DNA of 64,000 nt from the IMG/VR virus record IMGVR_UViG_3300033233_000020, positions 31,071-95,070 of that record. One strand, written 5' to 3'. The position numbers were made by a program, and so were the translations under genes. The notes beneath the pieces are model-generated. The model made no database searches and had not been told where the DNA came from. It was given only the letters and a program-made list of their open reading frames with translations. How positions within the stretch are numbered: the stretch's first letter is position 1; every line of letters starts with the position of its first letter. Source of the DNA: a virus. This document shows positions 2,063 through 63,124 of the stretch, one piece after another.

Positions 2063-2764
2063 TTAAAGCAGGGAAGGGAAGACTAACCCAGGAAGACCAC
2101 GCGAGAAATCGTCAACAGTAGTGTTGGGATCTGTAGGACCAGATAGTACATTCAAGAGTTCATTGTTCAACAATTTACTGATGGGAGATTGATAGTTAGC
2201 ATTCTCCAAGAAACTCTTTTGTAACATCTGCTGAAATAAATCCGACTTCTTCGGGTCACTTGTTCCTGCAGTGGTTGCTGCAGATGCAATCTGCCCCTGC
2301 CCTGGAAGATCACCAAGAACACGTTGAGCATTTGCGTACAAATCACCACCTTGCTTAAAGCGTGGTAGTGCACCAGCAACTGAAGTCCCAAAGGAATCTT
2401 TGGCGTTCAAAGAGACATTCGGATTCCCACCTAAGACAGTTGCATAAGCACGATCAATTCCCATCTCACCTGGCTTAAAGCCACGGTCAAGAAGAAATTG
2501 AACAGCTTGTGGCATCTGTTCAGCACGGGTGTATTTACCCATGCGTGAAGGATCCAGGTACTTCTTTTGTTCAGAAGGACCAAATTGAATCATCCCATAG
2601 TAGTTGCCGCCAGCACCACCCCGAATATTGGGGTCCATGTTGACGCCTGACTCTAAGGAAAGGAATGCTCCCAGTTCGTATGGATTTAATTTTAGACGTT
2701 GAGCAGCATTAAAAATTGCCTGGCGATCAGCCGTAGGTAAAATGCCAATCTTGCTTCCAGACAT
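2063..2764 (-). CDS. Lytic transglycosylase-like (SLT-type) protein
   Basis: 233 residues. An LSLESG motif places a candidate catalytic Glu at residue 38, followed by GGAGGNYYGMIQFGP around residues 49-63, which fits the ES and GLMQ-like motifs of SLT or lysozyme-like transglycosylases. After about residue 150 the protein becomes low complexity and Gln/Ser-rich. There is no signal peptide, so it may be a virion-associated murein hydrolase that opens the cell wall on entry rather than the lysis enzyme. An AGGAG sequence lies upstream of the ATG. Confidence 0.7.
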   Translation of the reverse strand: MSGSKIGILPTADRQAIFNAAQRLKLNPYELGAFLSLESGVNMDPNIRGGAGGNYYGMIQFGPSEQKKYLDPSRMGKYTRAEQMPQAVQFLLDRGFKPGEMGIDRAYATVLGGNPNVSLNAKDSFGTSVAGALPRFKQGGDLYANAQRVLGDLPGQGQIASAATTAGTSDPKKSDLFQQMLQKSFLENANYQSPISKLLNNELLNVLSGPTDPNTTVDDFSRGLPGLVFPSLL

Positions 2765-3949: not shown

Positions 3950-4411
3950 TTATCTCCAGTTAAGGTTTAAGAAAATACTGGAACCAGTACTTACGTCAGC
4001 AGGGCCAGGCAGCGCCTGGATAAATTCAGCACCGGAACGTTCGTAGCGATACCTGGCCTGGAACGGATCTTTGTAGTTGGGAACGTAAAGGATGTTGGCA
4101 AGTCGATTTGTCTCATAAAGATAAATCTCATCCCATACCTTTAATGCTTCCTTGGCATTACTGGATCTGATCGTACGATCAACGTCACCAGCAATGTTCT
4201 CAATCCGAGTAGAAGGCGAAGTTGCTACTTCGGTTTTCTTCTCGGCTGTGTCGCAGCGACCAACCTGAATAATGATCTTATCGTAGAAATAAGAATCAGG
4301 TACCGTGTTTAAGGATTCCTCCAGGCGAGCATAGTCACCCGCTGGTACAGAAACAACGTAATACCCCAAGTGGTATCTAACTCTACTTTTGTCGAAGTCA
4401 GATAAACGCAC
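3950..4411 (-). CDS. Unrecognised virion-module protein
   Basis: 153 residues from a GTG start at 4411. Mixed alpha/beta with several Tyr/Arg-rich strands (for example YRYERSGAEF near the C-terminus). Its size and position next to other virion genes would suit a head-tail connector or completion protein, but no diagnostic motif is visible, so that is only a suggestion. Confidence 0.75.
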   Translation of the reverse strand: MRLSDFDKSRVRYHLGYYVVSVPAGDYARLEESLNTVPDSYFYDKIIIQVGRCDTAEKKTEVATSPSTRIENIAGDVDRTIRSSNAKEALKVWDEIYLYETNRLANILYVPNYKDPFQARYRYERSGAEFIQALPGPADVSTGSSIFLNLNWR

Positions 4412-4446: not shown

Positions 4447-5088
4447 TTATCCAAGCAGGCCTTGTGTTGGTATTAACCTAGATAGCTCTTGGCTTAATAA
4501 CTGTTGCGTCAATGAAGGTTGTTGGCTTTGATTTAGTAATTGTTCAAATAAAGCGTATTGTAATTCTTGATCTTGACTGTCAGGCGCAGCAGATGGTGTG
4601 GCCGCCGCAGAAGCAGGAACAACGCTGGTATTAGTAAGATCAGTTGCTTCCCCCAAGTTTTTCATGTGGCCATAACCTAATTCATATTTGTTATCTCCCG
4701 TTGTCCACGTAGCAAGATTACCATAACCACCAGCATCTTTACGTGGGGTGAATTTAACGTCGCCCTCTACAAAAATTTCAGTCCCTTCTGCTCCAGCAAG
4801 ATCACGTCCTCTGTGATTAGTAGAGGCACCAGGAATACCCGTATTCCTTGGACCAAATCCAGAAGTAACTGTCAACCCAGCGGCGGGATTTAATGTGATT
4901 TCTCCGTTCTTACCTTGAAGATATTTCGGTACTCGATTAGCTCCTATCCTCACGCCCAGGAATTTGCTCTTATGGTATTTTGGGTTTTCGTATTCGCCGG
5001 TAAGTAGGTTCTTTACATACTCATGAAGGTGTGGACCACTAGAAACACCAGTGGAACCTAATTGCCCCAGTCTTGTGATATTCGCCAT
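4447..5088 (-). CDS. Circularly permuted M23/LytM-type metallopeptidase
   Basis: 213 residues. All M23 zinc-peptidase motifs are present but in rotated order. The motif that normally closes the domain (GSTGVSSGPHLHEYV, H20 and H22) is at the N-terminus. The normal beginning follows: SGFGPR at 76-81, NHRGRD with H92 and D96, and GYGHMK with H141. In ordinary LytM/M23 enzymes HxxxD comes first and HxH last. Upstream of the ATG there is no coding space for a lost N-terminal domain. After residue 150 the chain is a Gln/Ser/Leu-rich tail. A virion-associated peptidoglycan endopeptidase is the likely function. Confidence 0.8.
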   Translation of the reverse strand: MANITRLGQLGSTGVSSGPHLHEYVKNLLTGEYENPKYHKSKFLGVRIGANRVPKYLQGKNGEITLNPAAGLTVTSGFGPRNTGIPGASTNHRGRDLAGAEGTEIFVEGDVKFTPRKDAGGYGNLATWTTGDNKYELGYGHMKNLGEATDLTNTSVVPASAAATPSAAPDSQDQELQYALFEQLLNQSQQPSLTQQLLSQELSRLIPTQGLLG

Positions 5089-5161
5089 ATATTAATTTTA
5101 CCAAGAAAAAACCCCGGTCACCCAGGGCAAGTAATGCGCTAAAAGCGGAAAGGTAGATGTG

Positions 5162-5593
5162 TTAAACGCGGATCAGATCGGCTGCCATTACGGATTCCCA
5201 ATCGACCCTTCTAATCTGTTTCAACTGCTCAAGACTGCTGAATTTCTCACCCGATAAAGAAAGTTGAAGATCTTTAATTTCTCGAGCAGTTTTTAGACCA
5301 ATACCCTTAATATGGTCTGCAATCATTTGGGCTGTAGCACCGTTGATGTTAAGTCTTGTGTCGGGAGGGAAAGTACGAGGTGCTTCTTTAGATGCTCGAT
5401 CTTTTACTTGAAGAGTTTTGACTTTTTGAGTCGCTTGCTCATCAGGAAGCAATTCGGTTTTGTACGCGGTATACAGGCGACCATCTTGGTCTTCGACCAT
5501 GAACCAATCACCTGCATCCCACTCACTAACAATTCTTACCCGTGCTCCAGTCTTTTTATGACGATGGAGAATTTCTTCGGTGCTAGTAGCCAT
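5162..5593 (-). CDS. ComEA-like helix-hairpin-helix protein
   Basis: 143 residues. The C-terminal half (about 80-140) reads LNINGATAQMIADHIKGIGL, then KTAREIKDL, F.SLEQLKQI, the pattern of the ComEA-type helix-hairpin-helix that binds DNA through GIG turns. The N-terminal half (10-50) looks like a small beta barrel (RVRIVSEWDAGDWFMVEDQDG). It lies between the M23 peptidase and capsid-proximal genes, so it may bind DNA in the particle or during entry. Role in the phage is inferred. Confidence 0.75.
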   Translation of the reverse strand: MATSTEEILHRHKKTGARVRIVSEWDAGDWFMVEDQDGRLYTAYKTELLPDEQATQKVKTLQVKDRASKEAPRTFPPDTRLNINGATAQMIADHIKGIGLKTAREIKDLQLSLSGEKFSSLEQLKQIRRVDWESVMAADLIRV

Positions 5594-5634: not shown

Positions 5635-6429
5635 TCAGCTAACAGTGCGACCAGTTAAGTAGCCATCGATGTCTTCGTAGCCAGGTGCATCGTCAGGAAC
5701 GATGTAGCAAACTTCGACACAGAGGTAACCAGTGCGGCCAGCAGTTGAGTCACCGCTGGAGATGTAGAAACCACCACCAGTTGCTGTGGCGTTACCAGAG
5801 GCCTTGGAGAAGACCTTAAAGGTAGTTGCGCTGGTATAGGTAGCATAAAGTCCGGTGACGGTCGCAGACTGGCCGGTAGCGGTCAGGATGGGCACGTTAC
5901 CAAACGCTTGTACACCACCAGCGAACAAGATCTCACCCACTTGACCACCAGAAACGGTAGAAGCAAGGTTGGCTTGTGCAGTAGGCTCACCGGAATAAGC
6001 AACAGGGCTACCAGCGTTGTCGCGGCCAAAGGAGATCACGTTGCCGGTGGCGGCATAGATACCAGAAGCAACACGACCATCACCCCAACCAGAAGCAACC
6101 GAAATTGCCGTACGATAAACGTAAGCAGATTGGGTGGCGTTACCAGAGATCACCATTCCGGTGATGTCGGTACGGGTATCATCTTGCCGATAAGGCGAAG
6201 GGATGATAACAGAAGCAGTGGAGACAGGACCGCTGCCAGAGGTTGCCGTCACAGGAACGTAACCACGAGCCTGGAAGTAACGATAACCAGGGATAGCCAG
6301 CACCGAAGTGGGGCCACCTTTGGAAGAATCGTCAGTACCGTTTTGGGTATTGTCAATATTCTTATACCAGCTATTCAGGGGTTCAGCCCAGTTGCCGGGA
6401 AAGATTTTTTTAGCTGAAAGATAGGACAT
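5635..6429 (-). CDS. Capsid decoration or minor head protein candidate
   Basis: 264 residues, rich in Gly, Ala, Thr, Ser and Val with regular short strands, consistent with a beta-fold surface protein. It follows the major capsid gene on the same strand after a 29-base gap and has an AGGAGG sequence 7 bases before ATG, one of the strongest ribosome sites in the window. Strong initiation and adjacency to the capsid gene suggest an abundant head component. No domain name is recognised. Confidence 0.8.
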   Translation of the reverse strand: MSYLSAKKIFPGNWAEPLNSWYKNIDNTQNGTDDSSKGGPTSVLAIPGYRYFQARGYVPVTATSGSGPVSTASVIIPSPYRQDDTRTDITGMVISGNATQSAYVYRTAISVASGWGDGRVASGIYAATGNVISFGRDNAGSPVAYSGEPTAQANLASTVSGGQVGEILFAGGVQAFGNVPILTATGQSATVTGLYATYTSATTFKVFSKASGNATATGGGFYISSGDSTAGRTGYLCVEVCYIVPDDAPGYEDIDGYLTGRTVS

Positions 6430-6458: not shown

Positions 6459-7610
6459 TCAGACGTCGCCGTCGTCTTGCAGGAAGCTGAACGCAGTGGT
6501 AATGAAGTCCTTGTTCAGAATCTCAAAACCAGCGTACAGTTGCCAAATCAGAATGATAAATCGGCTGAAGTCATCGTTATTGTTGATGAGGACTTGAGCA
6601 TTCGGGCCACCGATACCCACGCCAACTGCTTGAGGACCGAAGAAGTAACCTTGAGCGACTTCGTAGGTACCTGCGCCAGGGGTAGTGCCCAGGGTAGCAG
6701 CTTGGTTCTTGGTTGGGAAGTTGGTGGATTCGAAGAACTTCACACCTTCAAACTGAACGCCAGTAGGCATCACAGGTTCACCGGCAAGGAAGTAACCTTG
6801 ACCAGCTTGAGGACCTTGGAAGAAGCTAGCGTTGTTAGGCATCATGGGGTTACCCATGTACATGCCTTGACCAGGATTACCGGAGTAACGTGCAATCTCG
6901 CGGAAGTCAGGGTCACGACGCAGATGCATCATGAACGTGGGGTCGCAAATACAACGATACAGACCATCAGCGAAGGTAGGAACGTTGCGCTTACGCAGGT
7001 CCTTAACAACGGTCAGAAGGTCGGTACGAACTTGGAACTGCTGAACGTTAGCAGTGTACTCGCCTGCGGTGTAAGAAGGGTTCTTGGTCTTGTTACCAGG
7101 GAAGTAGTAACCACCTTGGCTAGAAGATGCGGGACCATTTGCTTCTGCCTTGGACAGTTCGTCAAGGAAGACGCGGTCACGCCAGCGGCGGTAGTCGTCG
7201 AGCAGGGTCAGTGAACCGATGCTCTGGTGGAACATATTCAGGTTACCGGTGTCCAGCAGCATGCGCTGGGCGGTAATCAGAGTTTCACGAGCAATCTTAA
7301 AGGTGCTGGGCTGAGTCGGATCGCCGGGGTCAGCAGGACCGGTGTATTCCTTAAGCACCACAAGGACTTTCTCCTTGGTGATGTTACGGCTGTTGGCGGT
7401 ACCGATGGTCTGGTCAGCGATGCGTTCGCGGCTGTCCTTAGTACCAGGGCTGCCCCAGAACTTGTAACGGTCGAGCTGAACAGTTTGGCCAGGCTGGGAA
7501 GTAAAGTCGTGGACAACCACGGGCTCTACAGCCATCTCGCAAATGTAAGCAGGGTGGGGGCGGTAAAGTTCCGCGCCCAGAATCTTAGGAAAGTCTGTAT
7601 CAAGAAACAC
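6459..7610 (-). CDS. Major capsid protein (HK97-fold type)
   Basis: 383 residues from GTG at 7610 with GGAGG upstream. The pattern fits HK97-fold capsid proteins of the N4 gp56-like kind: an N-terminal arm, a helix-rich segment around 108-165 (ARETLITAQRMLL, DYRRWRDRVFLDEL), a DPTFMMHLRRDPDFREIARY segment near 224, and a C-terminal Gly/Asn strand region ending in helices. Size, SD strength and position among scaffold, portal and decoration candidates agree. Assignment is by pattern and context. Confidence 0.8.
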   Translation of the reverse strand: MFLDTDFPKILGAELYRPHPAYICEMAVEPVVVHDFTSQPGQTVQLDRYKFWGSPGTKDSRERIADQTIGTANSRNITKEKVLVVLKEYTGPADPGDPTQPSTFKIARETLITAQRMLLDTGNLNMFHQSIGSLTLLDDYRRWRDRVFLDELSKAEANGPASSSQGGYYFPGNKTKNPSYTAGEYTANVQQFQVRTDLLTVVKDLRKRNVPTFADGLYRCICDPTFMMHLRRDPDFREIARYSGNPGQGMYMGNPMMPNNASFFQGPQAGQGYFLAGEPVMPTGVQFEGVKFFESTNFPTKNQAATLGTTPGAGTYEVAQGYFFGPQAVGVGIGGPNAQVLINNNDDFSRFIILIWQLYAGFEILNKDFITTAFSFLQDDGDV

Positions 7611-11722: not shown

Positions 11723-11908
11723 TTACTCTTCTTTTACTTCGTAACCAGAAGGGTCATGTACTTTGCTCAATACAATACCCTCGCCCTTCAAATCCCAATT
11801 AAGAATATCCCCTTCTTTCCATCCAAGCTCATCAATTAGTTCATCTGGAAACTCAATGAACAATTCCCCTTGTTCATTTTCTTGAACCTCCACAGTGTAA
11901 CTTGTCAT
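11723..11908 (-). CDS. AbrB/MazE-like swapped-hairpin protein
   Basis: 61 residues. GELFIEFPDELIDELGWKEG followed by D.L.W and a short beta hairpin matches the compact AbrB/SpoVT/MazE DNA-binding fold. It overlaps the next gene upstream by four bases (ATGA), giving coupled translation. It could be a small transcription regulator or a structural reuse of the fold; no toxin partner is visible. Confidence 0.65.
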   Translation of the reverse strand: MTSYTVEVQENEQGELFIEFPDELIDELGWKEGDILNWDLKGEGIVLSKVHDPSGYEVKEE

Positions 11909-12198
11909 TTTGTAAAAAGCTTTTCCACTAGCTTATCAAGCTTAAGGTTGATTTGCCTAAAGTTATCATGCATTTCCTGGATTTCCCTTAAGAAGTCAAC
12001 CTTGAGAACGTATTCCAAGGGGAGCCGGCTCACTTGATTTTCTAATGAGTTTAAACGATTCTCTTGCTTACTTAACAATTCGTACACTGTTTTAACCCTA
12101 TCGCTTGCACGTGAAAGTATCTTGTTTGCCACCCAGCTCCCACCTCCAATTGAGGATATTACCGCCGTTAGGACGAGAGCAAAATATTCCGGGCCCAT
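11905..12198 (-). CDS. Holin-like small protein: one TM segment plus coiled coil
   Basis: 97 residues: an N-terminal hydrophobic segment (about 4-27, YFALVLTAVISSIGGGSWVA), then a heptad-rich helix over residues 35-95. This resembles XhlA-like lysis proteins and phage membrane accessory proteins. It sits next to the large terminase. Lysis function is a guess from topology. Confidence 0.6.
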   Translation of the reverse strand: MGPEYFALVLTAVISSIGGGSWVANKILSRASDRVKTVYELLSKQENRLNSLENQVSRLPLEYVLKVDFLREIQEMHDNFRQINLKLDKLVEKLFTK

Positions 12199-62587: not shown

Positions 62588-63124
62588 CTATTTAGATGTT
62601 AGGATTGACCAGCCAGTGTTGCGGCCATCAACCTCCCAACGTGGGAGCCAATTTTTTTTAGTGTATTGAATATTTTTACCTGCAGTGGAGGAATTGCTGA
62701 CGTATCCACCAGATGACATATTACCTTCCCCAAAGGGATCATGTAATACCAAATGGGTAGGTGTAAAACCACACACTACGCCCCAATGACCACCACCTGT
62801 TGGTTTAGCTGCCGTGCCATGATGCAACCATCCGCAAGCAACAGGTCTGTTGTTACGTATCTCATTTTCTAATAGAGTTAAATTTCCATTAGTTACAAAT
62901 TTTGCTTTAAGTCCCAGAGATTGAAGTGTTTTTAACTGTGCGGAACTATCCGTGGTATCTCCAAATTTTTGTCTTATTGCATTGTATTCATCATCTGTTT
63001 TTATCTTTCCATAAAAAGCGGCAACCATTGCGCAAGAAGAAGAAAAGCACTCACGATTTCCCTGCCCTGATTTATTGTCAAGCTGATAAAAATAAGGAAC
63101 CACTAAAGTTTGCGTGGTAGTCAT
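62588..63124 (-). CDS. C39-like cysteine peptidase, endolysin candidate
   Basis: 178 residues. VPYFYQLDN and RECFSSSCAMVAAFYG give the Gln and nucleophile Cys26 region; GGGHWGVVCGF supplies His114 and LHDPFG supplies Asp130, the catalytic order of C39-type papain-like peptidases. There is no signal peptide. Such domains occur in phage cell-wall hydrolases, so lysis or entry is plausible. It overlaps the upstream gene by four bases (ATGA). Confidence 0.75.
   Translation of the reverse strand: MTTTQTLVVPYFYQLDNKSGQGNRECFSSSCAMVAAFYGKIKTDDEYNAIRQKFGDTTDSSAQLKTLQSLGLKAKFVTNGNLTLLENEIRNNRPVACGWLHHGTAAKPTGGGHWGVVCGFTPTHLVLHDPFGEGNMSSGGYVSNSSTAGKNIQYTKKNWLPRWEVDGRNTGWSILTSK

Follow-up and report, generated by a model that had tools for sequence, protein, structure and literature searches.

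Evidence for a circularly permuted M23 peptidase domain in a cyanophage family and in tape-measure proteins of other phages

Sequence comparison supports a circularly permuted M23 (LytM-type) peptidase domain in a protein of 213 residues encoded in the window that we analyzed (64,000 nucleotides, part of a 95,070-base IMG/VR virus record of an S-EIV1-like freshwater cyanophage). Ordinary M23 profiles recognize both halves of the domain, with their order swapped, in a single small chain from a conserved family, and they match the chain without a break once it is doubled; this bears out the circular permutation proposed in the initial annotation. We consider it probable that the protein is a permuted zinc metallopeptidase with a C-terminal docking tail that is carried in the virion and opens the cell wall for DNA entry. 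We found no permuted M23 domain in the literature searched (a search that did not reach the original S-EIV1 paper).

Gene, motif order and profile matches

The putative permuted peptidase gene and its parts are listed below, all on the minus strand.

4447..5088 (-): putative permuted M23 peptidase gene (P0001), whole; ATG start, 213 aa
4978..5073 (-): normally C-terminal M23 piece, now first, residues 6-37 (GxxGSTGvSSGPHLH...NP); ordinary-M23 profile 96-125, PDB 9m7n 876-907
5023..5037 (-): GPHLH, residues 18-22 (by analogy, H20 water-activating and H22 a zinc ligand); from conservation, with roles from the available part of PMC9662197
4894..4977 (-): linker from old C-terminus to old N-terminus, residues 38-65; no profile match between 37 and 66, pLDDT about 95
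4657..4893 (-): normally N-terminal M23 piece, residues 66-144 (SGFGPR...HRGRD...GGYGN...GYGHM); profile 5-82, Pfam PF01551
4801..4815 (-): HRGRD, residues 92-96 (H92 and D96 putative zinc ligands by analogy); invariant in 82/82 sequences
4666..4668 (-): H141, corresponding by analogy to the central catalytic His; invariant in 82/82
4450..4641 (-): C-terminal tail, residues ~150-213, two helices, proposed docking or packaging tail; pLDDT 36-61
5111..5128 (-): terminator-like hairpin, 23-40 nt upstream of the peptidase gene, from a hairpin search

The protein carries GQLGSTGVSSGPHLH near its start, followed by SGFGPR...NHRGRD...GGYGN...GYGHM and a low-complexity tail. According to the available part of PMC9662197, M23 enzymes coordinate zinc through two His and one Asp from the H(x)nD and HxH motifs; the first His of HxH is a non-ligand with a proposed part in water activation, and a further His is found about 30 residues ahead of it. 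All five of these residues are present in the window protein, re-ordered: the HxH motif is H20-L-H22, the HxxxD motif is H92-RGR-D96, and GPHLH, HRGRD and H141 stand at the residues given in the initial annotation. H141 comes after HxH rather than some 30 residues ahead of it because of the permutation, and doubling the chain puts it at the expected place in the profile. The resulting order (HxH, HxxxD, His) is unlike that of M23 (HxxxD, central His, HxH), so we file the protein as a permuted variant and not as an ordinary member; it looks to work like an M23 enzyme and to descend from M23, with the family-defining motif order unmet. An in-frame stop lies one codon ahead of the ATG and the terminator-like hairpin lies further upstream, so that no domain is missing upstream of the open reading frame, in agreement with the earlier claim that there is no upstream coding space.

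The Pfam Peptidase_M23 model (PF01551) matches the protein in two stretches at 29.1 bits (cut-off 28.7), and phmmer against the PDB aligns residues 61-142 with 776-860 of 9m7n and residues 6-37 with 876-907 of the same chain; 3slu gives the same two swapped pieces. We also built an ordinary-M23 profile from the domains of cellular loci (from 73 ordinary loci, duplicates removed). Its positions 5-82, the part from HxxxD to the central His, match residues 66-144 at 60.6 bits, and positions 96-125, the HxH part, match residues 6-37 at 16.8 bits (best of 200 shuffles, 8.4), so that the N-terminal place of the HxH piece, ahead of HxxxD and the central His, is confirmed by profile as well as in the open reading frame. 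This profile has no match between residues 37 and 66. When the first 155 residues are doubled, one continuous match covers profile 5-125 at 82.4 bits (best shuffle, 6.3). The new ends fall in the loop that separates the strand of the central His from the GxxGxTG...HxH hairpin, and a linker of about 28 residues bridges the former termini; as a result, the closing HxH strand is made first. M23/LytM proteins (PF01551; lysostaphin, LytM, ShyA, NMB0315) have the HxxxD, HxH, central His, GGYGN and GxTGxStGPHLH signatures in common with the window protein, which differs from them in having the HxH piece first, new ends before GxxGxTG, and the linker.

The AlphaFold2 model of the window protein (35 aligned sequences) has a mean pLDDT of 77, with blocks at 95-96 over residues 21-70, 72-93 elsewhere in 1-150, and a poor tail. 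Strands are placed at 4-10, 20-27, 73-76, 95-98, 104-108, 113-116, 124-129 and 135-145, and the linker (38-65) is modeled as a helix with short strands; the prediction is thus of a domain modeled with confidence from about residue 1 to 150, its strands following the rotated order that was expected. The AlphaFold model of a relative with Asp at residue 22 (L044) has block means of 90-98 over 1-150. Foldseek and VIA-align are taken here as chain-order aligners that penalize a permuted domain, and Foldseek against the PDB gave no M23 chain in the best 50 of 218 matches (E up to 10; best E 0.39) for the window model or in the best 50 of 286 (E up to 10; best E 0.25) for the L044 model. Among the matches listed by VIA-align, the window model hit unrelated folds only (up to Z 4.1), and the L044 model hit lectins (Z 4.6 and 4.3), ShyA (Z 3.9, rmsd 3.4 over 83 aligned residues, and 3.7) and Csd3 (Z 3.5 and 3.4), these two M23 proteins scoring lower than, or level with, lectins that are unrelated. 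Foldseek against BFVD returned three credible matches (probability 0.99-1.00): A0A510E7V3_3, H6WFX6 of S-TIM5, and a tape-measure fragment.

Permuted and ordinary M23 domains across phages and cells

Besides the features already annotated, relatives with Asp in place of H22, the permuted domain in tape-measure proteins, and a shared C-terminal tail were observed. Part of the window is similar to the DNA of Synechococcus phage S-EIV1 (KJ410740), at 82% identity over 26% of 25 kb. The family was gathered by scans with the window protein (35 loci), the S-EIV1 protein (45 loci) and their alignment (80 kept of 331 relatives); together with S-EIV1 this makes 157 loci, some of them the same contig twice, with 84 distinct proteins. 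The permuted order is found in 81 of these 84 (32 with HLD, 28 with HKH and 21 with HLH), the remaining three having a different N-terminal domain, and all 35 relatives from the window-protein scan match from residue 1. The permuted order is inherited across the phage family. Fifteen positions were counted in the 81 permuted proteins plus the window protein (n=82); G8, H20, P36, S76, G79, R81, H92, D96, G109, G123 and H141 are invariant, and residue 22 is His in 50 (HKH or HLH) and Asp in 32 (HLD). The S-EIV1 protein AHV82231.1 belongs to the same family, sits at the same place and has the same permuted order (GAHLD, HEGID, LLH). It differs from the window protein in being of the Asp type at residue 22 and is annotated simply as 'peptidase M23 family'; it has no Pfam match at E up to 1.

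A tblastn search with a distant family member (L079) retrieved 24 records from Acinetobacter phages, most of them under a tape-measure annotation; residues 21-102 of the query align collinearly. In gp80 of Acinetobacter phage R3177 (Pfam TMP_3) the motifs read LVGISGQSGIGTGPHLDVRY...SSNYGPRKAPTKGASSFHKGIDF...LKLLHQSP, and the tape-measure domain of Moraxella phage Mcat20 is similar; the ordinary-M23 profile matches each half once in both proteins, in swapped order. The permuted order was seen in 154 of 155 IMG/VR tape-measure loci examined (with some contigs counted twice and 48 distinct domain strings in all), the remaining locus (L337) being broken inside the domain. The rotated order for which the initial annotation had suggested searching phage proteins thus occurs in the cyanophage family and in tape-measure loci alike, and the aligned tape-measure forms have Asp at the position of the second His ligand. 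We note that the Moraxella phage tape-measure genes L249 (667-3222) and L337 have a stop or frame change inside the permuted domain.

That ordinary members have the opposite order, as first annotated, holds for 77 of 80 cellular relatives (73 by pattern and four variant spellings: L167, L179, L189 and L238) and for all nine phage M23 proteins fetched as controls. No permuted M23 was found among the 80 cellular relatives, of which the other three are beyond judging (L193 is without HxH; L194 and L228 are cut by a contig end). The S-TIM5 virion protein AEZ65701 (L254:7229-10222) has GAHLH at 538 before HTGVD at 591 and Phage_lysozyme2 at its C-terminus, and an extra M23- or barrel-like piece at 430-464 makes its permuted order ambiguous. 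A tree of 72 rows places permuted and ordinary domains on two sides of one branch, with one state change (support 79/68); this tree comes from a short alignment, leaves out 14 of 86 rows (all of the HLD type and covering fewer than 95 columns) and has a very long S-TIM5 branch. As judged from these sequences, a single origin of the permutation is allowed, not shown.

Gene neighborhood, shared tail and domain exchange

The peptidase gene lies in a structural module with the following neighbors.

6459..7610 (-): major capsid protein (MCP); phrog_1357 E 1.2e-19, 94.5% identical in S-EIV1
5635..6429 (-): conserved neighbor (p5635); no Pfam or PHROG match, syntenic
5162..5593 (-): helix-hairpin-helix (HHH) protein, directly upstream of the peptidase; HHH_3 E 3e-4, syntenic
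3950..4411 (-): phrog_29158 protein (p29158), directly downstream of the peptidase; E 1e-84, syntenic
2063..2764 (-): lysozyme-like partner gene, same module; Phage_lysozyme2 at E 0.054 only, phrog_4928 E 8e-7, homologue in many syntenic loci

The order MCP, p5635, HHH, peptidase, phrog_29158, orf316, lysozyme-like, p634 recurs through the 157 loci: 35 have MCP, p5635, HHH, M23, p29158, orf316 and p634, and 31 have the lysozyme-like gene too. In a minority of loci p29158 is ahead of the peptidase. Of 155 family loci, 144 have a hairpin with T-rich sequence after it no more than 110 nt ahead of the peptidase gene; through it the peptidase may be expressed separately from the capsid genes or at a lower level than they are. 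Elsewhere in the window, a gene at 62588-63124 (-) encodes a C39/C70-like papain-type cysteine peptidase (Pfam E 1e-8 and 5e-8) that may be a second enzyme for the wall or for lysis, and a MazE-like antitoxin-domain protein (E 2e-5) overlaps a DUF2730-like protein with an N-terminal hydrophobic stretch (11723-11908 (-) and 11905-12198 (-)).

In locus L079, the last ~73 residues of the peptidase share 49% identity with the tail encoded by the neighboring gene (E 3e-17), in which Pfam finds an SLT domain (E 1e-6). Tail matches between peptidase and partner were also found in L074-L077, L085 and L125 (E 2e-16 to 3e-8) and in S-EIV1 (E 0.004); in the window's own sequence (in L089) the peptidase tail matches that of 2063-2764 weakly (E 0.02). 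Overall, 60 of 151 loci gave matches at E up to 0.05. Some matches were to opposite-strand open reading frames (e.g. in L067, L095, L101 and L107), and these we took as chance. The mean tail score was 49.0 for same-phage pairs (28 distinct pairs, including two M15-like proteins, L083 and L084), as compared to 35.6 for different-phage pairs and 23.8 for shuffled ones (99th percentile 36.4), and the partner from the same phage ranks first in only 3 of the 28 comparisons. The similarity of the tails of two module enzymes points to a common docking or packaging tail, which the peptidase and its lysozyme- or SLT-like neighbor would both carry.

Three relatives, L081 (3427-4113), L083 (4584-5267) and L084 (4626-5312), have another domain in place of the permuted M23 at the same locus and keep the tail, which is 68-70% identical to that of S-EIV1 over residues 141-248. 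The swapped-in domain takes up their first ~138 residues and has the motifs GYHPVGMAIDV...GHDTHVH, i.e. an HxxxxxxD...HxH pattern that we take to be M15-like. Its only Pfam match is a weak one to Extensin-like_C (E 0.27), and a sequence search of the PDB gave no match to it. The flanking genes are close to those of the window (90.9% identity for the HHH gene and 98.9-99.3% for the phrog_29158 gene), and the case is one of domain swapping in nature among phages that are close relatives. The catalytic domain alone is exchanged, in keeping with a plug-in wall enzyme whose anchor stays fixed.

Proposed function, alternatives and implications

By analogy with characterized M23 enzymes, we propose that the chain would fold as an ordinary M23 domain, with zinc bound by H22, H92 and D96 and water activated by H20 and H141, and that the permuted enzyme would cut a peptide cross-link of cyanobacterial peptidoglycan. 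The peptidase would ride in the virion with the lysozyme- or SLT-like module enzyme, both docked by the similar C-terminal tail, and the virion-carried enzymes would open the wall and let the DNA enter. A virion location is suggested by the tails and by the position of the gene beside capsid and structural-module genes. Virion-associated phage M23 proteins described in PMC9662197 (phi29 gp13, Tal2009 and CwlP) have the same likely role, i.e. wall opening by a virion protein; permutation of such enzymes goes unmentioned in the available part of that paper ('permut', 0 occurrences).

The protein could instead be an endolysin, made late for progeny release and absent from the virion. Its best matches include PHROG lysis families, its gene has its own terminator-like boundary, and many phage M23 enzymes are endolysins (PMC9662197, available part), but we regard this reading as improbable: the gene lies in the structural module, the tail resembles that of another module enzyme, the same permuted domain occurs inside tape-measure proteins of other phages, and the C39/C70-like cysteine peptidase could serve lysis. 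Slightly less probable still is a degenerate M23 fold with a structural or binding role and no catalysis. An Asp in place of the second His ligand, as in 32 of the 82 family members and in the aligned tape-measure forms, would suit it, but the five motif residues are intact in the window protein, the other residues are invariant across the family, and HxD also occurs in ordinary-order M23 proteins (L189 and L253).

A domain-swapped oligomer, in which the active site of each subunit takes its N-terminal piece from a neighbor, is quite unlikely in our judgment. The sequence reads alike for pairing within and between chains, but the models of a single chain have high confidence throughout the domain, the two pieces are separated by a long linker, and the tape-measure forms have each half once per chain. 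Mis-assembly, a wrong start codon or a frameshift can be dismissed with near certainty, because the same order is seen in 81 of 84 distinct proteins, from many samples and including the isolate S-EIV1; nothing was found in favor of such an artefact. The virion-carried permuted peptidase is the reading that we prefer.

M23 is a common wall-peptidase family recognized by two motifs in a fixed order. NlpC/P60 proteins, another group of wall peptidases, are papain-like cysteine enzymes unrelated to M23. Their superfamily includes groups with circularly permuted catalytic domains (the LRAT-like and YaeF/G6R groups, as described in the available part of PMC6403190). The existence of a natural, conserved permuted lineage of M23 suggests that new termini in the loop ahead of HxH are tolerated by the fold. 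Permuted M23 enzymes come out split, or are overlooked, when annotation relies on profiles, as with the S-EIV1 protein.

The same permuted domain is used in both stand-alone and tape-measure settings, in unrelated bacterial viruses, and we tentatively entertain, at somewhat under even confidence, the following scenario. One old permutation may have founded a virion-M23 lineage, comprising stand-alone, tail-docked enzymes in cyanophages and mid-tape-measure inserts in Acinetobacter and Moraxella phages (perhaps also the S-TIM5 virion protein). The moved ends would permit splicing into, or hanging from, virion proteins in ways that the ordinary order forbids, and a shared C-terminal tail, exchangeable between them, would direct the partner wall enzymes of one phage to the particle. 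Two unrelated wall enzymes that carry a similar tail in the same phage offer a testable case of a virion-targeting tag.
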